A stretch of DNA of 64,000 bases from assembly GCA_033002965.1 (NCBI GenBank), contig JAURVB010003318.1:1-64000 (forward strand). The letters are read 5' to 3'. The position numbers were made by a program, and so were the translations under genes. The notes below the pieces were generated by a model, which did not search any database, was not told the DNA's origin, and worked only from the letters and a program-made list of their open reading frames with translations. Each line of letters opens with the position of its first letter. The stretch's first letter is position 1. Below, one piece after another: positions 52,748-64,000 of the stretch. The DNA comes from Piper betle (lineage: Eukaryota > Streptophyta > Magnoliopsida > Piperales > Piperaceae).

Positions 52748-53939
52748 TTGTGATGATGAGCTAGCAGGCCCCGAATTCTATTTTCTTGAATTATTTCTAT
52801 TACAATTTCCTAGACTGTAGAGAAAGATCCTCCAACTTCCTTGTAAGTGAAATTTAGAGAAGGGAAATTACAAGTGTTTGCAAAATACAAAATAGCTTTA
52901 AACTTTAGTATTACAAAGTATATCAGTAAGCCAAGGACATCCTCTTAAGATTATAATACTTATATATTCAGTGCCCATTTATTTTTATTCTTCCCACCAC
53001 AAATATGTACCCTCATTGTAGTAGATGCTTAACATTAGCTAGGACATCACAAAAAATCACTAGCCACTATTATAATTATGAAATATACACATGGAATTTT
53101 CATTTTTTATAGCAAAGGGATTAAACAGACTCCCCAACCGGATAATAAGGGAGCGGATTATGACATGATGACAATGATGATGGCAACAATGATGATGAAA
53201 ATGACATCATGCAAACATTGAAAATGAGATCATAAATTTGAAAGCTTCCATCAAAATTATGTATGTGAATCAACAAAGCAGGATTGACTATTAGTAAAAT
53301 TGCTTTTTCTATGTTACCTACAAATATAAATAATTCTTAGTCCTTTCCAATGTCCCCAAACCATGTACATAGTAACAAGTAATAAATCATGTACGCAGTA
53401 ACAAGTATGTACACACCAAAAACAAATACTAAACAATTTCAGACAAATGTGGGTCCACACCTTTTCGCTTATATGTATAAGTCCTCGGCTTTAAGATTGA
53501 ACAATGCTTTTTCCACAACTATTATCCATAACAATATAAAACTTATCCATTCTGTACTTTCAAAACACCAATCTGATGATATCCAAAAATATTAATTAGT
53601 AATAATTTCTGAAAAAGAAAATATTTGCAAGACTATTGAAAACCACCCAAACACTTGGCCAAGGTGGAAAAATTAAAATGACTATATTGAAGTTCACAGT
53701 CCATCTTCTATATTGAAGCAATTCAGTTCCAGCATATATACAAACAAATAAACATGTACCTTGTGACATGAACAATAATACAAAAAAACCTAATATAGGA
53801 ATCTGATTATTGGTTCCTCCTCAAAAGTCAATAGAATTTATTCAGAGTCACAGAAAATGGCTAAACAAAGAATTACACAAATGAATAAACCATAGTTTGA
53901 CCCATCATTTTTCAATAAGAATAGAGCCCCATAAACTTA
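52748..53939. other. Spacer, no gene seen
   Basis: AT-rich sequence after D2. A run of GATGATG-type words lies at 53158-53210. The downstream (C-terminal) exons of the glycosyltransferase would be expected here, but I could not recognise them. Confidence 0.45.
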
Positions 53940-54918
53940 AGATGCCACTTTAGAAAAGAAGCTAAGTCATGTGAGAAACCAATACCTTCTTCCCACTAGC
54001 ACGCCAAGTCTAAACTCCAATCTAAGGTTTTTTGTGAATGCTATTGACTTTGTTTGCAATTGCAAACATACCGCCAATCTCACAAAGAAGATCCTTATAG
54101 TAAGTATCATTTAACAGCAGAAGACGAGACATAGCATCAACATCATCTGACGTAGATATCCTCCCCCTTTAAGGACCGGGTAAATTTAACATTAAATCAT
54201 GTCACAAGAAGTTCATCTAAATAAACAAACTAAGTTCTAATCTTGAACCATTTTACACCAAGACAGCAAATTATCATTCCTCCTCTTTAGTGCTTGTTGA
54301 GATGGAAATATGCATGTAAAAAGCAATTGGCAAATTCAACTTGCCCGCTAATTAATATAAAAGATGTTCTAACATTCCTTGAGAAAATGCAAAATCTGGA
54401 ATGAAAATATGTGAACTATAAACGTTACACATTAAAACTCATTTGGAGAACCTAACATGGTGGTTGAACATAAATTCATGAAGAACTGTGAAGTAAAACA
54501 TAAAAATAAAAATAAAAATAACAACATCAAAAACAACAACAATAATAATAATAATAATTAACAATAATAATTACTCACTATGCTTAATCCCTGATAATGA
54601 GATCCATGGTGTAGGAATGACCATACACCACACCCATCATAAACTTCATATACACGAAAGGGTTCACCTTCATCTCTTTCATTACTCGCAGTGTTAATTT
54701 TTTCAGCTTTTTTAGCACTACGGTGAATATCATCCCATGAACCAAAGCTTATCTTAGTTCTTTCTTCAAGCTACATAGACCAATAAAGAGTTTCACATTG
54801 ACATCCTTAAAACTCCCCAAATACAAAACCCATTCTGTAAATGCTCACCTCATCCAGTTCATGTCTTTCATGTTCTTGTACAATTTCTACTTCTCGAAGA
54901 TTTACCCAGTCCAACTGT
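53940..54918 (-). pseudogene. GT4-type glycosyltransferase pseudogene GT-II, exons below the LTR element
   Basis: Below the LTR element, the interrupted exon continues with EIVQEHERHELDEVSIYRMG, FKDVNVKLFIGLCSLKKELR and VYEVYDGCGVWSFLHHGSHY, and ends at a donor near 54581. An intron with the family microsatellite (54505-54565) follows. The next exon (about 53950-54175) reads RISTSDDVDAMSRLLLLNDT, YYKDLLCEIGGMFAIANKVN and SIHKKP, where the usual PWIGFQSW is broken by two stops (P, stop, IGV, stop, TW). These features match At4g01210/At5g04480-type enzymes of about 1,000 residues. The gene was already dead, or died independently of the insertion. Confidence 0.82.
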
Positions 54919-54923
54919 GTAAT

Positions 54924-55251
54924 TGGTGTGATCTTCCTTCCCCAATTCGACGACAAGCTCCTTCCCTTTGCCTTGCTTGCTCCCCTGCCTCGATGGCGCC
55001 ATGGAGAAGAAGACCTGCAACGGAATTCAGCTGGAGCTTGATGGATCGAGATAGTGGATGGAGAAGGGAGCAGAAGAGAATTCTGGCTCCCTTGGCGATC
55101 TCCTGAAAAGTCGGACTGGAAACAACAATAACAACAAAACAAGAATTCAATTTCATCAAAAGTGTTCTGTTACAACTTCATGCTCTGTTTTATACCCTGT
55201 TTTCCCATCCCGTCCTCTGTTATCCCGCCAGCTCTCCCTTTATTCATACCA
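54924..55251 (-). repeat. 3' LTR of the host-gene-carrying element
   Basis: 328 bp. It is identical to the 5' LTR except for one missing A (about 55160). It contains the same internal ATG frame (MAPSRQGSKQGKGKELVVEL) as the 5' LTR. Confidence 0.93.
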
Positions 55252-55266
55252 AATACCCCCCCAATG
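55252..55266 (-). other. Polypurine tract
   Basis: The minus strand reads CATTGGGGGGGTATT directly before the 3' LTR, the expected primer site for plus-strand DNA synthesis. Confidence 0.8.
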
Positions 55267-55384
55267 AAAAACAACCTTGCCCTCAAGGTTGCTAAAGCAT
55301 TAAAAGGCTACAAAAATTACTCTTCTGATTGACATGCTGGCGGTAAAGAGGATTGGATCTGAACACCAGCTGCTACCGAAGCCG

Positions 55385-55646
55385 ACCAGAAACTCACAGA
55401 CTTGAACAGAGCAGATGACATTAACGCTCCCCAAAACTTGCTGATGACATTAACATGTTGGCCTCTTTGCAAGTTAAATTGCAGCAGCACCTGATACTTG
55501 GACAAGTTCATCAATAAGATCGACATTCAAAACACCAAGAATAAATCCAGCACCAATTCCTTGAATTTTATAACCAGGCTTTCCACCCGAAAGAACTGCA
55601 CTTTCTCTTTTGCCTTTTGAACTGCACCCTTCATGCCTCTAGCTGG
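55385..55646 (-). pseudogene. Captured O-acetylserine(thiol)lyase (cysteine synthase) fragment
   Basis: Cysteine synthases are PLP enzymes of the last step of cysteine synthesis. The first piece, [14 protein letters not shown], is in frame with the PS1-like part. After an internal deletion and a one-base shift come [20 protein letters not shown] and [18 protein letters not shown] second deletion joins VS to GAAAI, then a stop and LAKRP. A third jump gives SFGER and SSALFKSV, the family C-terminus. In the family these blocks are separated by tens of residues, so this is a patchwork from the second half of the protein. The PLP lysine lies in the missing N-terminal half. No introns are present. 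It cannot make an active enzyme. Confidence 0.85.
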
Positions 55647-56927
55647 AATAATTTGCCCGTAATTGGAATTATGGAGAAGTATCAGTTTCAAGCCCTTGGC
55701 AATCGTTCCGGCCTTCGGCGTTGTTCTCACAGTAGGCAAGTGGTAGCAATAGTTTTTCCTCATAGCTGCTGCTGCGTCCAAAGCACACCAGGTTGGACCT
55801 CTAAGACTACTGTCAGCCCATAAAAATCTCTTGGAGAATTGATTGACCAGGCTTTCCCTAAAATCCTTTGCAGTCTCACCGATTAACCCCTCCGCCATTG
55901 CTTTTATTGTTAGAGTAATGGCCTTTGTGAGGAGGACTATCTGCTCATCGTTTTTAAGCTCCTTGAAAAGAAGGGCACACTCGAGTATATGATCTCCTGC
56001 TGTTGGGCTGACAATCTCCATGAAGTCACCACATTTAGAAAACGGTATTGGTTTATTAGCGCGACTTCCATCACTTAACCAGGAGCGAGGAGAAGCAGGA
56101 GGAGTAGGCGCTATAGACACACTTTCGGACGAGCTTTGTACATGAATCCACCAACTTGTTTTCACCATGCAGTCTTCAATCTGCTGCAATGAGGAAGAAG
56201 CATCTTCATCCTTTCGAAACCAGCTAGCCTTTCTCTTTAGGCAATCTAGTTCTCTTATCACCATTCTTGGTATGATGAGATGTGTCCCTTTGATTCCTTC
56301 CAATAACTTCAGCGACTTTCTGGACTCTTCGTCAAGGAGACAGCTCGCATCTACCACCCTGTTCCATTTCTTCCTGTATTCTCCCGTTTTAGCATAAGCC
56401 TGATCCACTGAACGATTATCATCCCCATGTTTATCAATTCTGCTTTGTGTGCAGCTGTTAAAATCAGTAGACTTGCCAGCAACATTCACAATTGAACTTA
56501 CTCTGCTTTCGCTCTTAGAATTCACAATGAGAGATTGAAAGGGAATTCTCTCATATTTTCTACTGTTGTCCTTATCTAAAATCATTTGGTTTTGCTTATC
56601 ACCCAGCCGTGTTGCTTTGTGGGAGTGTGAAACAGATGGAGTCATGTTTTCTTTATCAGATGGGAAGTAATCAGATGAGGATAGTGGCGAGTCGTTGAAA
56701 TCCAGATGCTTGGACGGTGGAAGCTCTAACTTCAGGTTCTCCTTCAGTTTTGATTTCAACCTTGCAACAAGCGTTGGTGTCATGTTTTCTTTATCGGAAA
56801 CAAATGACTCTTCCTCATTGACCTGCCCTGAGAAGAGAACCTTGCAGAGTGTTTCCTCAACTCTTTTGCCACTACTCGTAACTCGTCTATTTTCGTCATT
56901 CTCCTTTTCTGATCCAATAAAAACCAT
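55527..56927 (-). CDS. Captured PARALLEL SPINDLE 1-like PIN-domain fragment (466-codon open frame)
   Basis: This frame of 466 codons has no stop. Residues 1 to about 180 are low-complexity with two [12 protein letters not shown] motifs (residues 44-51 and 90-97). Residues 185 to about 425 form a PIN domain: [69 protein letters not shown], then [19 protein letters not shown] and [10 protein letters not shown]. This matches the C-terminal half of plant PS1-type FHA-PIN proteins, which set spindle orientation in male meiosis II. The N-terminal FHA domain is absent. The PIN position usually written TNDVTLKIKAM reads [11 protein letters not shown], so an acidic residue is lost. Residues 428-441 are O-acetylserine(thiol)lyase and the tail is out of frame. 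No introns. Whether it is translated is unknown. Confidence 0.72.
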
Positions 56928-57065
56928 CCCACTATTTTTTCTTCACTCCCAATTTTGACCTTAATGAGGCTAGCCAAATTATGCCTTCGGGACGTCGAGG
57001 AATCTCTACGTTCCACGCTTGCAAGAGTAATGCGTTCATCTCTTTCAGTCAAAACCTGCCCTATA
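56921..57065 (-). other. Unidentified linker between SET and PS1-like parts
   Basis: About 48 codons continue the SET frame (GQVLTERDERITLASVERRD, then [20 protein letters not shown]). They match neither the SET family after GEPIV nor anything I know from PS1. This could be a fourth captured piece or a diverged part of the PS1-like source. The PS1-like reading starts in another frame at 56927. Confidence 0.4.
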
Positions 57066-57067
57066 AC

Positions 57068-57919
57068 AATTGGCTCCCCACATTTATATGGACGATCCAC
57101 CACCAGCTCAACTGCACCTTCTCTAGCAGTCAGCATTGCCTTGCAATTGCTTCTGTATGCGAGTAGTGGAGGGCCCATAGGAACCAAAGCAAACCTACGA
57201 GCTAATGGCACTTTCTGCAAATGAACAACACAGGATTGAACGGCAACAAATGCTTGTTTAAAGATCTCAAAGGAGAAAGCTTCTGTAGGTATGTCATAAG
57301 GGTATTGCTGAAACAAGGAGCCTGCCATAAACCCCACCGTATCCAGCTCGTTATACTCTCTCTTAATGCCCTCAGCTCTCTCATCAACTTCAGCCTTAGT
57401 AGGACTTCCAGTTAAATAAGCAAGCTCTTCGTGAGACCATAGAAGTGGGGATTGCACAGCTAACTGCCCTCTCCCACGCTGCCGATCAAGTTCCCTGATG
57501 AAAGGATACCAGACAGATTTTTTTCCTTGCTTCTTTTCATACATGAGATACAGCGCCAAACATGCCAACTCTGATAGTTTATTAGTTGTCAGAAGCTCAG
57601 CAATTGTCTCATTTCCAAGAACTCTGTCCAGAGTAACAACCAACGAATTCGGAACCGAGAAAGCCACATCTCCTGCCTTGAGATTTTCACTGGCCCCATC
57701 AAAACCACCAGGCCCATTAAAATTGAAATCTAATTTGTCAAATTTGAAGCCTTTTTTCTTGCTTGAAGGTGTGCCATAGTCAAAATCACCATCCTCAGCC
57801 ACTTTGATTGATTTCCAGGAGGTGAGAAAATCCTCCTCTCCTTCAAGAAGTGTGATTCTCTTTTTTGTGTCAGCAGAAACAGGTGCCTCATTTTCTGCCA
57901 TCGCTTGTGACATTTGTGG
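57068..57919 (-). CDS. Captured Rubisco-methyltransferase-like SET protein fragment
   Basis: This is part of an open frame of 526 codons (56780-58360), fused in frame to gag. Residues 169-197 read ITLLEGEEDFLTSWKSIKVA. Residues 222-300 read GASENLKAGDVAFSVPNSLV, VLGNETIAELLTTNKLSELA and WYPFIRELDRQRGRGQLAVQ. Residues 310-431 read LTGSPTKAEVDERAEGIKRE, FMAGSLFQQYPYDIPTEAFS and ARRFALVPMGPPLLAYRSNC. It closely resembles the plastid SET family of At3g07670 (Rubisco LSMT-like). It breaks off at PYKCGEPIV, just before the conserved NYGF catalytic motif, and the stretch after residue 221 joins two distant parts. It lacks introns and cannot be a complete methyltransferase. Confidence 0.85.
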
Positions 57920-57949
57920 AACTAAAGCTGGAGATCTTGTTCGATCGTG

Positions 57950-58796
57950 GGAAACCCTTGTTGTCAACCTACTGAATCGAGTTGTATACTCTTGATAGTC
58001 TGATTGTCCTAATTGCAGGTTCATGGTATCTTCCAATTGCGCCCAAGAAGATATTTCTTGATGTTGTTGCAGCACATCAAATTTCTCTGCTCGCCTGAAC
58101 CAAGAATTAGGATCCTTTGAACCATCGAATTCTGGAAAACTGATCTTGGATCCCCTCACCCAAGCCTCACTTGGAATGTTATGCAGGAAGCCCTCCTGGA
58201 CATTCTGTCGAACAGGTTCCATGCCAAATCTGGGCGTCATGACTGGTCCTCCAAATTGCTGATGTCTACCAACAGAGCCCTGCTGATGTCTACCACCAAA
58301 CAACATGGCATGCTCTTCCAAATGGTTATTACCACTGGATTCCCTGCAATTGTGGTCCACTCCCTGAATGCATCAAGAACTCCTCCTGTTGCAATGGATG
58401 GTGGATGCCCTGCAAGTAATCATCTCGGCGTCGCCTGCTGCTCGACGACCTGAATTGTTCCTCTTGCTGCTGATCGCGATTGATTCTCTGCCTAGGATCA
58501 TCAACCCCCACATCATTTGCAGGAACCCTAATCATCGAGGTACCAATCCCCTCTCGATGCCCCAATCCATCAATTCTTGATTGTAACAATAATTCCAATT
58601 TTGCAGACATATTGGAAACAGCAGCAAGCAATTGATATTGAACCTTACGAATTTGTGCAAATTCTTCAGAATTGGATGAAGAACTCATACCTCCCTCGCC
58701 AGGCTCTGATACCAATCTGGTGTGATCTTCCTTCCCCAATTCGACGACAAGCTCCTTCCCTTTGCCTTGCTTGCTCCCCTGCCTCGATGGCGCCAT
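57950..58796 (-). CDS. gag of the non-autonomous LTR element (one frameshift)
   Basis: I place the start at 58796, inside the 5' LTR, because MAP...GKG... at this position is shared with the second family member at 63805. An upstream in-frame ATG at 58814 has no counterpart there. The frame passes through the primer-binding site (LVSEPGEGG) into SSSSNSEEFAQIRKVQYQLL and AAVSNMSAKLELLLQSRI, a likely coiled coil. It shifts by one base near 58340-58365. It then continues with PSEAWVRGSKISFPEFDGSK, DPNSWFRRAEKFDVLQQHQE and LGQSDYQEYTTRFSRLTTRV, which resembles the retrotransposon gag domain of Ty3/gypsy elements. The gag is abruptly joined to the SET fragment after TTRV. No zinc knuckle is present. 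Confidence 0.7.
58702..58715 (-). other. Primer-binding site (tRNA-iMet)
   Basis: The minus strand reads TTGGTATCAGAGCC two bases after the end of the 5' LTR, complementary to the 3' end of initiator methionine tRNA. It is also translated as LVSEP in the gag frame. Confidence 0.9.
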
Positions 58797-59046
58797 GGAG
58801 AAGAAGACCTGCAACGGAATTCAGCTGGAGCTTGATGGATCGAGATAGTGGATGGAGAAGGGAGCAGAAGAGAATTCTGGCTCCCTTGGCGATCTCCTGA
58901 AAAGTCGGACTGGAAACAACAATAACAACAAAACAAGAATTCAATTTCATCAAAAAGTGTTCTGTTACAACTTCATGCTCTGTTTTATACCCTGTTTTCC
59001 CATCCCGTCCTCTGTTATCCCGCCAGCTCTCCCTTTATTCATACCA
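58718..59046 (-). repeat. 5' LTR of the host-gene-carrying element
   Basis: 329 bp, TG...CA ends. It holds a TATA box (58981-58990) and the gag start (58796). The likely R/U5 region is GC-rich and coding. Confidence 0.93.
58981..58990 (-). promoter_or_regulatory. TATA box in the 5' LTR
   Basis: The minus strand reads GTATAAAACA about 55 bp into the LTR. The second family member has GATATAAAAACA at the comparable place (63623-63634). Transcription would start roughly 30 bp downstream, leaving a leader of about 150 nt before the gag ATG. Confidence 0.6.
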
Positions 59047-59051
59047 GTAAT

Positions 59052-60757
59052 GCTATCATGAACCAGTTCATCCTCCAATGACTTGTTTGCAGTATGCATT
59101 ACAGCCAATTTAGTTTCCAAAACATTTACTAAACTCATTTTATTGGTAGAGCTTCCTTAAATGAGTGCACTGTTTCCTGCTGAAACGGTGACCATTCCCA
59201 TGATTGATGTTGATGATGGAAAGACTCTGGAAGCACTGTTTCTTATGGAAACTGGACAACATTTTCAATAATTTTTACATTGTCACCTAAACACTCGGAT
59301 GGCTTCATGTCTTGCACTAGCAACTTTCCAGAAGCTGCAACTTTAGATGCAAACTTTGAAATTTTCATGCCTGAAATTAGAAGAGAAAAGGACTGAGTCA
59401 ATGACTTCGGGTTGTTTGCTTCAAAAAGCAAACCATGCACCCCATCAACAACCTGCAAACAACAAATACTTGGCTTTAAACTCTATTTCACTTCAACAAG
59501 GGTGAGGGCGCAGCTACTGACTAGAAAAGATGTATAGTAGCACTAAAATGAAAGAACCTACAGAGTCAAAAGTTCATATATCTATCACTTGAAGAATGAT
59601 AAGACTAGAATATAAGCAGATAAACGAAATCAATGCCCAAGACTTAATAAAATTGAAGTTATGAGTTTCCAATCTCATCAATGCCCAAAAATTTATAGTC
59701 TTTTTAGTGAGTGTCAAAGACTGAACAGAGATTTAGCAAGTACATCAGAGATTTAACAATCACATATGCAAGAAAATTATCACTACCTTCTTAAAATTAA
59801 ACCAACAATATGGAAGAACCTTTATAACATATAACATCACATACAAATATTACAAAGTTTGATATCCAAGTCAAAAAAGTATATACTCACATATCTTTTT
59901 ATAGTAGCCAAATCAGGAGCTATGATGGGTATTTCAAAGGACAAAGCTCGAGCAAGATGAAAAGTTCTGTTGATCTTTAACTGAATCATAAATAACAATA
60001 TCAGCCATCAAGAACAAGGCATTGATATCATCATCTGCAATCTAGTGCTTTAAAGAATCATCAGGAAGTCCCGCAGTGATCAGCTTCCTGTATAAAATTT
60101 AAACTAGCCAGCACATAAAAGAAATGTGTGCAGTGGACCCCTCACTGCATACCTTAAAAGCATTCTGGTAGCCTTCAGAAGTGTTCCCATCCAAAAAATA
60201 AACTTAAAAGTTCCCCCTTCCACGGTCTCTGTCTTCTCTAGGTTCATTAGTAGAGGACCAACACTTTCCAAAATCACTGCATGAAGCCATGGTAACTCAT
60301 CATAAAACAAAGAGGTTCCAGTCAAAAGAGTTTTAGAATGAGACAGAATGTACCTTTTAACTGCAGAGACATCAGCTAGGGTATCAGAAATGACAAAAAA
60401 GTTCTCAGTATCAAGCACGCTGTACATCATCTAATGTGAAGAAATTACAGAGTGAAAAACCTCAGAGTATGGATCTTTTAAAAGAACAAAACTGACAGAG
60501 CATCGTTGCCTAAAGAGAGAAGTAAGGAAACACAACAATATCAGCCCTACTGAAAGCATTTCTCCATTCGTCTAATAGACTCAACCAATTCATCTGCGCA
60601 TACAAAGACAACCATTTTCCCAGTACATCCTCCATGACAAGCCATATAAAAGGTATGGAGCTGAAAGGTTCCTGAATAAGACTGTATAACCATGTAAACT
60701 AACAATCTATGACCACGAAAAGGATCTCCAATATGTTACAACGATTAGATCCAATAT
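59052..60757 (-). pseudogene. GT4-type glycosyltransferase pseudogene GT-II, unit 1 above the LTR element
   Basis: The exon from about 59452 down to the insertion reads VVDGVHGLLFEANNPKSLTQ, SFSLLISGMKISKFASKVAA and SECLGDNVKIIENVVQFP, then a stop. The upstream exon (60104-60430) reads MMYSVLDTENFFVISDT, TGTSLFYDELPWLHAVILES and VGPLLMNLEKTETVEGGTFK, then a frameshift. A further piece near 60000 reads LMADIVIYDSVKDQQ. These correspond to the donor-sugar-binding half of At4g01210/At5g04480-type enzymes. Unit 1 ends near 60757, where its sequence jumps to the start of unit 2. Confidence 0.82.
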
Positions 60758-63350
60758 AAAAATGTTCTAACAATCCTTGAGAAAATGTAAAATCCCGAAG
60801 AGTGAAAATATATGAACTATTAACGTTGCACATTAAAACCCATTTGGAGAAGCCTAACATGGTGATTGAACATAAATTCATGAAGAACTATGAAGTAAAA
60901 AATAAAAATAATAATAATGATAATAATGATAAAAAGAACAACATCAACAACAATAACAATAATAATAATAACAATAACAATTAACAATAATAATTACTCA
61001 CCATGTTTAATCCTCGATAAAGAGATCCATGGTGTACGAATGACCATGCACCACGCCCATCATAAACTTCATATATACATGGGTTGGCCAGTTCTCTCCC
61101 GTTCACCTTCATCTCTCATTACTCTCAGCTTTAATTTTTTTAGCTTTTTTAGCACTATGGTAAATATCATCCCAAGAACCCAAGCTTCTCTCAGTTCTTT
61201 CTACAAGCTACATAGACCAAGAAAGAGTTCCACATTAACATCCTTAAAACTCCCCAAATACCAAAACCATTCTGTTAATGCTCACCACATCCGGTTCATG
61301 TCTATCATGTTCTTCAACAATTTCTACTTCCATCTGGGTAATGCTATCATGAACCATATTATTAGTTTCATCCTCCAATTAGTGCTACTATAACTTATGA
61401 AAGAACCTACAGAGTCAAAAGTTCACATGTCTATAACTTGAAGAATGCTAAGACTAGACTATAAGCAGATAAACGAAATTGATACAAATTTCCAACCTTA
61501 TCAACGCCCAAGGCTTAATATTATTTTTTAGTGAGGAGTTAAAAGTTCATATATCTATTACTTGAAAAATGCTAACAATAAACTATAAGCAGACATACGA
61601 AGTTGAAGTTATGAGTTTCCAATCTCATCAATGCCCAAAAATTAATAATCTTTTTGTGAGTGTCAAAGACTGAACAGAGATTTAGCAAGTACATCAGAGA
61701 TTTAGCAATCACATATGCAAGAAAATTATCACTACCTTCTTAAAATTAAACCAACAATATGGAAGAACCTTCAGAACATATAACATCACATACAAATATT
61801 ACAAAGTTTGATATCCCAGTTAAAAAAGTATGTACTCTTATATCTTTTTATAATAGCCAAATCAGGAGCTATAATGGGTATTTCAAAGGACATGGCTCGA
61901 GCCAACAAAGATGAAAAGCTCTGTTGATCTTTAACTGAATCATAAATAACAATATCAGCCATCAAGGAGAAGGCATTCATATCATCATCTGCATTCTAGT
62001 GCTTTAAAGAGTCATCAGGAAGTCCCAACAGTGATACAGCTTCCTGTATAAAATTTAAACTAACCAGCACATCATTGATTGATCAATAAAAAGAAATGTG
62101 TAAAGTAGACCCCTCACCGCATACCTTAAAAGCATTCTGGTAGCCATCAGAAGTGTTCCCATCCAGAAAAATGAACTTAAAAGTTCCCCCTCCACGATCT
62201 CCATCTTATCTAGGTTCATTAGTAGAGGACCAACACTTTCCAAAATCAGTGCATGACGCCATGGAAACCCGTCATAAAGCAAAGAGGTTCCAGTGAAAAA
62301 AGTTTTGGAATGTGACAGAATGTACCTTTTAACTGCCGAGACATCAACTAGGGTATCAGAAATGACGAAAAAGTTCCCAACATCAAGCATGCTGTACATC
62401 ATCTAATGGGAAGAAATCAACAGAGTCAAAAACCTCAGAGTAATGGATCTTTTAAAAGAACAAAACTGACAGGGCATCATTACCGGAAGAGAGAAGTCAG
62501 GAAACACAACAATATCAGCCCTACTGAACGCATTTCTCCATTCATCTAATAGACTCAGCCAATTCATCTGCTGCATTCAAAGATAAACGTTTTCACAGTA
62601 CATCCTCCATGACAAGCCATATATTAAAGGTATGGAACTGAAAGGTTCCTGCATAAGAATGTTTCAACCATGTAAACTAACAATCTATGACTGCGAAAAG
62701 GATCATCAACATGTTTACAACGATTAAATCCAATCATAGCTGAATACTTGACTCATTGCATGGAGTTGAGCAATTACAAAGTTTATACCTAGAAACTGCT
62801 TCTTTTGCCTCAATTGAGCTACAAATGACACATTCCTAGCTGGAAAAGAGATTCTATTTGAGTTAAATATTGTGTAATACACAACTATGCCTACTTAAAA
62901 TTGCAAGACAAGGAAAGATTTACAGTAACCAGTCAACCGCCATGACACCTTCAGAATCAAATATAATTGGCTGACAGCCGATCTGCGTCCATAAAGAGTA
63001 TGCTTCACCATCTTCCACAGCATATATCTGGTAACAAAAATTAAGGGATTTTCAAAATAATAAAAAGACATTTTTCTGTCTCCATTGAAGTTTAATCGTA
63101 GTAAAAAATAGTCTGTTTCAAAAGAAGACACAAGCAAGAAATCTGGGATTTACATGTCTAATAATAAGGTTGATAGATTGAGCTATATTAAAAAGAAGGG
63201 ATAGGTTGAGAAAGTTCCATGAGTTCAACTATGAATGGACAGGAAAAGCTACAAAAAGGAAATTAAACAAATGATAAGTTAAATAAACAAAAAGTGAACA
63301 CGACCTGCGACGGTGTATGGCAATTTCTCAGTCGAGAATTGTTACAAATC
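60758..63350 (-). pseudogene. GT4-type glycosyltransferase pseudogene GT-II, unit 2 and 5' exons
   Basis: This is a second, tandem copy of the same exons: 60764-61380 matches 54370-54923, and 61395-62710 matches 59560-60720. It lacks the VVDGVHGLLF exon present in unit 1 and contains the unoccupied GTAAT site at about 61341. Exon pieces are FSLMADIVIYDSVKDQQSFS and SLLARAMSFEIPIIAPDLAI (61786-61980), MMYSMLDVGNFFVISDTLVD and SLLYDGFPWRHALILESVGP (62200-62402), LMQEPFSSIPLI (about 62640), WRNAFSRADIVVFPDFSLPV (about 62500), and farther up IYAVEDGEAYSLWTQIGCQP (about 62960-63027). The order is that of the intact gene. Frameshifts and stops are frequent. Its upper 217 bp match the left edge of the window. 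Confidence 0.82.
60897..60985. repeat. AAT/AAC-rich microsatellite
   Basis: AATAATAATGATAATAATGA followed by AACAACATCAACAACAATAA-type repeats in the same GT intron as the repeats at 18833 and 54505. An open poly-Asn frame here is an artefact. Confidence 0.85.
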
Positions 63351-63514: not shown

Positions 63515-63883
63515 TGGTATGAATATAATGGGTATAAGGTGAGTGAGGGTACTGTTGTATTGGCACGCGTTTGAATGTAAGGGTTGGCGGGAAACAACAG
63601 GGATGGGGTTTGTGAAACAGGGGATATAAAAACAGAGTGTGGGAATTGTAATTGGCATCTTTGGTGATAATAAATCTTCGTTTTAGTTTGTTATTCTCTT
63701 CCGACTTTTCAGGAAGAACAACCAGGGAGTAAGGTCCGTCCTTGCTTCCATCCATACCAATTCCACTTCGATTCCATCTTCATCACCTGCAGGTCGTCAT
63801 CGCCATGGCGCCTGTGAAGCAGAGTAGGAAGCAGAGTCGAGGGAAAGGAATCCTTGGCGACGCTGGTGAAGAAGAACCTACCA
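63515..63883 (+). repeat. 5' LTR of a second member of the host-gene-carrying family
   Basis: Begins TGGTATGAATATAATGGG and ends GAAGAACCTACCA, 369 bp. Its ends match the other family member's LTR (TGGTATGAAT...ACACCA), but much of the middle differs. It holds a TATA box at about 63623-63634. It is oriented on the plus strand, facing away from the first element. Confidence 0.88.
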
Positions 63884-64000
63884 AATTGGTATCAGAGCCT
63901 GGCGAGGGAGGTAAGAGTTCTTCATCCAATTCTGAAGAATTTGCACAAATTCGTAAGGTTCAATATCAATTGCTTGCTGCTGTTTCCAATATGTCTGCAA
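63805..64000 (+). CDS. gag N-terminus of the second family member (runs off the window)
   Basis: The ATG at 63805 lies within the LTR and reads MAPVKQSRKQSRGKGILGDA. It crosses the primer-binding site at 63886-63899 as KLVSEPGEGG and continues KSSSSNSEEFAQIRKVQYQL, LAAVSNMSA to the window edge without a stop. From the primer-binding site on it is almost identical to the gag of the element at 54924-59046. Whether this copy is autonomous or also carries host genes cannot be seen. Confidence 0.75.
   Translation, partial: MAPVKQSRKQSRGKGILGDAGEEEPTKLVSEPGEGGKSSSSNSEEFAQIRKVQYQLLAAVSNMSA

Follow-up and report, generated by a model that had tools for sequence, protein, structure and literature searches.

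A Piper betle LTR retrotransposon with spliced pieces of three host genes and its apparent modular relatives

Borders and terminal signals of the element

The DNA analysed here, termed the window, comprises positions 1-64,000 of the forward strand of contig JAURVB010003318.1 in the Piper betle assembly GCA_033002965.1, and all coordinates are given with respect to it. A comparison of direct repeats revealed an LTR element of 4123 bp on the minus strand (54924-59046) that is bounded by a 5' LTR of 329 bp (58718-59046) and a 3' LTR of 328 bp (54924-55251). The two LTRs are nearly identical and differ by a single base within an A-run. As expected of an LTR retrotransposon, they are direct repeats with TG..CA ends and are enclosed by the short target site duplication GTAAT, located at 54919-54923 and 59047-59051. 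Moreover, a stretch resembling a primer-binding site (PBS; 58702-58714, minus strand), which we take to be of the initiator Met-tRNA type, and a G-rich polypurine-like stretch (55252-55266, minus strand) were read from the sequence directly adjoining the 5' and the 3' LTR, respectively. Both signals had been named in an earlier note on this DNA, along with the outer coordinates 54919..59051, which proved to be exact because the LTR ends and the GTAAT copies fall there. Ahead of the polypurine-like stretch lies the inverted repeat AACCTTGAGGGCAAGGTT (55273-55290, minus strand), which was found, unchanged or as a close variant, at the matching place in four of the seven other family members compared. 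The element appears to have been recently active. Neither Rfam nor a tRNA scan detected a match in the window. The host gene interrupted by the element presumably encodes a glycosyltransferase, and a Pfam search with this flanking gene gave nothing useful; the names GYF-like, NETWORKED-like, PRD3/PAIR1-like and RAD16-like are presumptive in the same manner.

The gag remnant, segment X and three captured host genes

An internally deleted gag remnant, split over two frames in the window copy, occupies positions 57990-58690 of the minus strand, and no pol domain was detected by Pfam in the five frames of the element that were scanned, in agreement with the earlier view that gag is retained on the minus strand and pol is gone. 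The gag remnant is adjoined by a segment of about 290 bp, designated X (57698-57989, minus strand), that is common wholly or partly to members with different cargo and whose source was not traced. Segment X is missing from the 5 kb that were read of the methyltransferase locus C2525. A 45-base pattern derived from X was matched at 38 places in the genome, of which 34 are located within approximately 800 bp of a gag-block match and the other four (C6886, C3975, C4562 and C957) inside element matches that also cover gag. Accordingly, none of the pattern matches represents a host source, in a search that is blind to a source more than three mismatches away. A PDB search with the frame spanning gag, X and the methyltransferase part yielded no match, and NCBIfam searches with two window frames yielded nothing. 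Segment X is separate from the methyltransferase part, which had been overlooked previously.

The captured genes were named with the aid of Pfam, NCBIfam and PDB sequences, together with loci of the same genome. The first is a cDNA fragment of the Rubisco methyltransferase family (approximately 57061-57697, minus strand) that lacks introns and is 95-99% identical to the exons of locus C2525. This part by itself matched no Pfam or PDB entry, and its identity was established via the intron-bearing locus, the later exons of which match Rubis-subs-bind (PF09273, 8.3e-8). Four introns and the exon 1/2 boundary of the locus are without a counterpart intron in the element. The second is a PS1-like cDNA with a PIN domain (55641-57060, right end approximate, minus strand) that matches PIN_4 (PF13638, 1.6e-18) and is 93-96% identical to the exons of locus C2462, three introns of which are missing. 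The third is an O-acetylserine(thiol)lyase (OASTL) cDNA fragment with an internal deletion (approximately 55436-55640, both ends approximate, minus strand) that matches solved cysteine synthases in the PDB (4.7e-13) and is 94-95% identical to locus C255. The introns of this locus are likewise absent: one of them separates exons B and C, the join of which in the element has lost 3 bp, and a further intron is probably missing as well. The identities proposed in the earlier note thus stand, with revised extents: the methyltransferase fragment placed at 57068-57919 had taken in segment X, the PS1-like fragment placed at about 55650-56927 reaches to about 57060 and covers the supposed gap 56928-57067, and the OASTL fragment had been placed at 55385-55646.

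Alignment with the host's own genes at C2525, C2462 and C255, a check that had been suggested beforehand, revealed exon-exon joins from which the introns of the loci are absent, and bears out the claim that spliced pieces of three unrelated host genes, in sense orientation, replace pol. Intronless source genes, named in advance as the point on which this claim would fail, are excluded for the three loci. The three-gene capture is beyond chance, since exons are joined without introns relative to three unrelated loci. Capture at the DNA level, in which gene pieces enter by break repair or nested insertion as in DNA transposons, would also be expected to produce partial genes in the same order, but it is very improbable given that all three genes lack introns at the exon joins and that the pieces lie in sense orientation.

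The PS1/OASTL junction contains 7 nt of common sequence (TCCAGCT) and no poly(A) tract, and little or no common sequence was found in the comparable part of the SET/PS1 join. Template switching predicts common sequence at joins, and hence the 7 nt fit this route, which the earlier note had favoured and which gains support from this one junction; the SET/PS1 join counts against it. An order of events in which spliced retrocopies first landed in or beside an LTR element, which later took them along by read-through, would equally leave intronless pieces, and one element cannot reveal the order of events. This order is nevertheless unlikely, as it needs three serial retrocopies in one orientation, as the PS1/OASTL join shows common sequence in place of a poly(A) tract, and as members with a common 5' block differ in cargo.

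The PS1 part (93-96%) and the OASTL part (94-95%) may stem from donors other than the assembled loci. A reading of the PS1 branch lengths according to which C2462 cannot be the donor was dropped because, when sites were counted against two paralogues, 28 changes were specific to the source and 23 to the element.

Copies of the composite and a family with differing cargo

The genome search for the same gene order, likewise suggested earlier, identified at least ten matches across the whole 3435-bp interior with 98-100% identity, including the window copy; this count is a lower bound, with 40 of 454 candidates scored. The ten copies are located on ten different contigs. Five of the 16 loci examined hold both complete LTRs along with their flanks, and the LTR pairs of these five show 0-3 mismatches; the target duplications are exact 5-bp repeats at four loci and agree in four of five bases at the other. 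The composite itself has thus transposed. An assembly artefact or a chimeric clone might be considered in a draft assembly of 11211 contigs, but its probability is negligible in view of the ten contigs and of the five loci, whose flanks differ and each of which has its own target duplication.

Among 14 loci including the window, the variation in gag-X comprised 15 synonymous, 34 non-synonymous and 4 stop changes (expected 14.3, 36.3 and 2.4) and that in the PS1 part 19, 50 and 4 (expected 19.9, 50.6 and 2.5), which fits little constraint. The methyltransferase part yielded 18, 21 and 3 such changes (expected 12.2, 28.3 and 1.5), an excess of synonymous change that may hint at constraint.

The 5' gag block was found at 61 places in the genome, and the cargo of other members includes WLM, Cpn60, RING, oxysterol-binding and OASTL pieces. 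A second member starts within the window with its 5' LTR and the start of gag (63515-64000, plus strand) and runs on to approximately position 68445 of the contig, with RING, WLM, PUB and Cpn60 as cargo. The gag-X block of the window element is 97.6-98.2% identical to that of members L039-L041, the LTRs of which show no more than short matching stretches; for the OASTL parts of L040 and L041, the similarity is approximately 82-92%. By these comparisons, the window element belongs to a modular multi-cargo family, which the earlier note had overlooked.

Open frames that span module borders from stop to stop comprise 728 codons in L041, 788 in L059, 894 in L058, 952 in L008 and 1288 in L064, where matches to RING, WLM, PUB (below the Pfam cut-off) and Cpn60 share one frame. 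A PDB search with the L058 frame gave no match, and NCBIfam searches with L058 and L041 gave nothing. These frames would be expected if selection kept fusion proteins, with a fused Gag-cargo protein or an RNA-stabilising long frame benefiting the element. This explanation is doubtful, as the variation of gag-X and PS1 among subfamily copies is near neutral and the frame is split in the window copy and in most of the 12 loci compared; moreover, the long frames were selected by length, and frame keeping is therefore not fairly counted. Long open frames in several members are not required of a passenger, and count against a pure passenger role.

A Ty3/gypsy relative with pol matches the Ty3 capsid, protease, reverse transcriptase, RNase H and integrase in pieces. 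Its LTRs are 80-82% alike to those of the window element, and the region from the LTR through the PBS to the gag start is approximately 80% identical. The Ty3/gypsy domains, without a match in the frames of the window element that were scanned, were found in pieces in this relative. No element that would mobilise this subfamily was identified, given the LTR similarity of only about 80% and the fragmented pol of this relative, and this counts against the mechanism proposed below.

Proposed origin and comparison with known systems

The LTRs, the target duplications, the exon joins of three genes, the dispersed copies and the pol-bearing relative are observed features; the steps of the mechanism are our inference. 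We consider it quite probable (roughly 85%) that the element is a non-autonomous LTR retrotransposon of the Ty3/gypsy type in which fragments copied from spliced host mRNAs through template switching have taken the place of pol. Host mRNAs would have been packaged along with element RNA into gypsy particles, where reverse transcriptase would have switched templates into and then out of the host mRNAs, retaining the cis-acting 5' end (LTR, PBS and gag start) and 3' end (polypurine stretch and LTR). Proteins from a pol-bearing relative could then have mobilised the composite RNA in trans, and later switching among co-packaged family RNAs may have combined the same gag-X block with different LTRs and cargo. 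The element would most likely be a mobile passenger without a selected protein function.

A broader reading can be put forward only tentatively, namely that this gypsy-derived lineage is a serial cDNA collector in which frame-keeping captures are favoured and multi-gene fusion proteins are steadily made. It would consist of a constant 5' block made up of the LTR, the PBS, a truncated gag and X, and of a constant 3' end, with the cargo between them exchanged by template switching, and its members would have joined pieces of at least seven host gene families (methyltransferase, PS1-PIN, OASTL, RING, WLM-PUB, Cpn60 and oxysterol-binding). The element and its family, in which the sets of host genes differ, illustrate how unrelated genes can become joined in mobile DNA. 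With its interchangeable multi-gene cargo, a young family of this kind in a single genome provides many capture joins for comparison. The rules that govern template switching, such as those on overlap length, order, frame keeping and mRNA choice, thereby become measurable and need not be argued from single cases.

Multi-gene capture by one LTR element is represented by few cases in the literature consulted. The maize element Bs1, cited in the earlier note as a one-gene precedent, took segments of three host genes according to a review (PMC13317346); it shares with the window element the LTR retrotransposon type and the number of host gene segments, whereas the host genes differ. The window element bears spliced pieces of multiple unrelated host genes between its PBS and its polypurine tract, as in a Bs1-like element. 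The soybean TRIM GmaRetroS15 carries exon-only fragments of three host genes, again like the window element, and soybean gene-carrying TRIMs have 5-bp target duplications, mostly several copies and lengths of 1172-1449 bp (PMC4717578). TRIMs are very short and without coding sequence, whereas the window element is 4123 bp long, retains a gag remnant and includes host pieces that measure approximately 0.2 to 1.4 kb. Since Bs1 and GmaRetroS15 each carry three genes in the sources available, three genes in series are rare, as had been supposed, but not new. LTR elements with host gene pieces have been surveyed in maize, rice, sorghum and pepper, and none of the 425 maize elements with gene fragments carried more than one standard nuclear gene under the conditions of that survey (PMC2774510, PMC3726574, PMC5664825). 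Such elements resemble the window element in holding host gene pieces, the maize ones carrying no more than one standard nuclear gene under those conditions and the window element carrying pieces of three host genes.

Pack-MULEs and Helitrons are also mobile elements with host gene pieces (PMC2774510), and Pack-MULEs retain exons and introns (PMC4717578). The window element differs from Pack-MULEs, which have terminal inverted repeats, in that no inverted-repeat pair of at least 30 bp was found in 53500-61000 and introns are absent from the cargo. Pack-MULEs and Helitrons are not known to have LTRs, and a single one may hold several host gene pieces. A retrogene made by a LINE typically has a poly(A) tail and no LTRs, in contrast to the window element, which is bounded by LTRs and has a G-rich stretch at its 3' end.

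Spliced copies of host genes within the element

The interior of the LTR retrotransposon copy at window positions 54924-59046 (minus strand, bounded by GTAAT duplications) comprises, in the order from the primer-binding site (PBS) to the polypurine stretch, a gag remnant, the segment X, a methyltransferase (SET) part, a PS1-like part and an O-acetylserine(thiol)lyase (OASTL) part. This interior was searched against the plant's own genome, which consists of 527 Mb in 11211 contigs. The PS1-like part matched contig C2462 in four pieces with 94-96% identity and the methyltransferase part matched contig C2525 in five pieces with 95-99% identity. Base-level comparisons revealed that three introns of C2462 are absent from the element, as are the introns at all four joins of the C2525 pieces. 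Additionally, the codons that close the first C2525 exon resemble the leftmost codons of the methyltransferase capture, and later exons of this locus match the Rubisco LSMT substrate-binding family. The OASTL part matched contig C255 in three pieces with 94-95% identity and in a fourth, short piece with 75%; of the steps in this comparison, one is an internal deletion and another reflects the joining of two exons, accompanied by a 3-bp deletion, while the part apparently extends at its end into the following exon. A PIN_4 match and a cysteine synthase match independently named two of the captured genes; AtPS1 is listed as a meiotic gene. Since introns of C2462, C2525 and C255 are missing at the exon joins in the element, all three host-gene parts are spliced copies, and the intron-free capture of three host genes claimed by the earlier note is borne out by the comparison that it had itself proposed.

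The segment X at 57698-57989, located between the gag remnant and the methyltransferase part, had been assigned mostly to the methyltransferase in the earlier note. This assignment did not hold, as X was not found in the C2525 locus within the 5 kb compared. A 45-base pattern from X occurred at 38 places in the genome, all 38 of them inside element loci as judged by comparison with the interior and gag-block matches.

The joining of host cDNA pieces into the element would be explained by a reverse transcriptase switching templates between packaged RNAs. Template switching fits the exon-only sense cargo, the retained cis ends and the 7 bases common to both sides of the PS1/OASTL join; the SET/PS1 join has little or no shared sequence in its comparable part.

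Structure, insertion site and recent movement

The LTRs of the element are 328 and 329 bp long and differ by a single base located in an A-run. The 5' LTR is adjoined by a PBS-like stretch and the 3' LTR by a G-rich stretch, just before which the short inverted repeat AACCTTGAGGGCAAGGTT is located (window 55273-55290). This repeat, identical or as a close variant, occupies the same position in four of the seven other members printed and is possibly a cis signal. When the flanks 54780-54923 and 59052-59300 were joined by script with one duplication, an open frame ran across the site, followed by the splice-donor-like GTGAGC, and on account of this uninterrupted frame the element appears to interrupt a host-gene exon, with an orientation that matches the gene's. 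Outside the element, a 108-bp direct repeat (54451-54558 and 60853-60960, 84% alike) flanks it, with a 42-bp repeat (88%) nearby.

At least 49 interior matches were detected in the genome, at least ten of which, including the window copy, span all 3435 bases at 98-100%; these copy numbers are lower bounds, since scoring covered 40 of 454 candidates. Of 16 loci examined, five retain the two LTRs in full together with their flanks, the others being truncated by contig or locus ends or lacking an LTR. Exact target duplications were identified at four of the five complete loci (GTAAT, CAAGG, GACAC and CAAAG), and the duplication of the fifth agrees in 4 of 5 bases. Because these loci have their own target duplications and LTR pairs with 0-3 mismatches, the composite must have moved as one unit, and recently. 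Three LTR mismatches in 328 bases would correspond to approximately 0.35 million years at the rate of 1.3e-8 used in a pepper paper (PMC5664825), which may not be the rate of this plant.

Reading frames and comparison with known elements

With respect to sequence variation among 14 loci, window copy included, the differences in PS1 and gag-X, the 5' block of the family, are near the neutral expectation, and synonymous changes exceed expectation in the methyltransferase part. Comparison of the element with the loci gives a dN/dS of 0.11 in the methyltransferase part and of 0.38 in PS1, values that may stem from constraint acting on the genes themselves. The reading frame is split in the window copy; a stop-to-stop frame over the methyltransferase and PS1 parts is present in three of 12 loci, with 750 codons in L002 and L004 and 952 in L008. 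The cargo is taken as passenger sequence.

Like the element, Bs1, which transduced segments of three host genes according to a review (PMC13317346), and a soybean TRIM with exons of three genes, as outlined in PMC4717578, contain pieces of three host genes. As these precedents exist and a maize survey recorded, under its conditions, no case among 425 LTR elements in which fragments of two or more standard genes were combined (PMC2774510), a three-gene LTR element is of a known, rare kind. A modular multi-cargo family of the sort described below was not reported in the literature searched.

A probable Ty3/gypsy family with diverse cargo

A pol-bearing relative is located on contig C1672 (L060:4827-6001, minus strand, and L066). 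Its LTR, PBS and gag start are about 80% identical to the element in one stretch, its 3' LTR is 82% identical, and its own two LTRs are 97% alike. Together with this similarity, the matches of the relative to Ty3 capsid, aspartic protease, reverse transcriptase, RNase H and integrase domains, which lie in separate frames, probably place the family with Ty3/gypsy. The element that currently mobilizes the family may be a different one.

A 49-base gag-start pattern, searched with up to three mismatches, occurred at 61 places in the genome (32 plus, 29 minus), and the backward control yielded 0. Ten further loci (L039-L041, L058-L061 and L063-L065) were examined along with the gag fragment L062, which is cut by a contig end, and the cargo of these ten differs from that of the element. 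The member L061 starts in the window (about 63515-64000, plus strand) and extends to contig position 68445 or so, with LTRs 99.7% alike and the duplication AAGCA. It contains a 690-codon frame matching WLM (1.2e-38), Cpn60 (6e-16) and, at a value below Pfam's cut-off, PUB (1.3e-7), and a RING match in another frame. In L064, one open frame of 1288 codons combines RING, WLM, Cpn60 and a PUB match that is likewise below the cut-off (4.7e-5). For the L061 cargo, contig C3456 matches from WLM to the start of PUB in seven pieces (73-86%), and C10156 and C4631 match Cpn60 in pieces at 77-88%, with one at 61%; these piecewise matches resemble split genes, making the three contigs candidate sources.

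Moreover, in L065:2227-3411 a single open frame joins a cysteine synthase (OASTL) piece (5.4e-16) with a piece of an oxysterol-binding protein (1.8e-32), and further loci carry OASTL pieces at 74-82% identity, with open frames of up to 901 codons. The gag-X blocks of the element and L040 are 97.6% identical, but their OASTL parts only about 82-92%, and their LTRs match in short stretches only, which argues that blocks have been exchanged between family members. On contig C11180 (G000:C11180:14355-17493), a stretch of about 3 kb contains three matches to OASTL fragments at 76-79% and one further, weak match, perhaps representing nested or tandem members.
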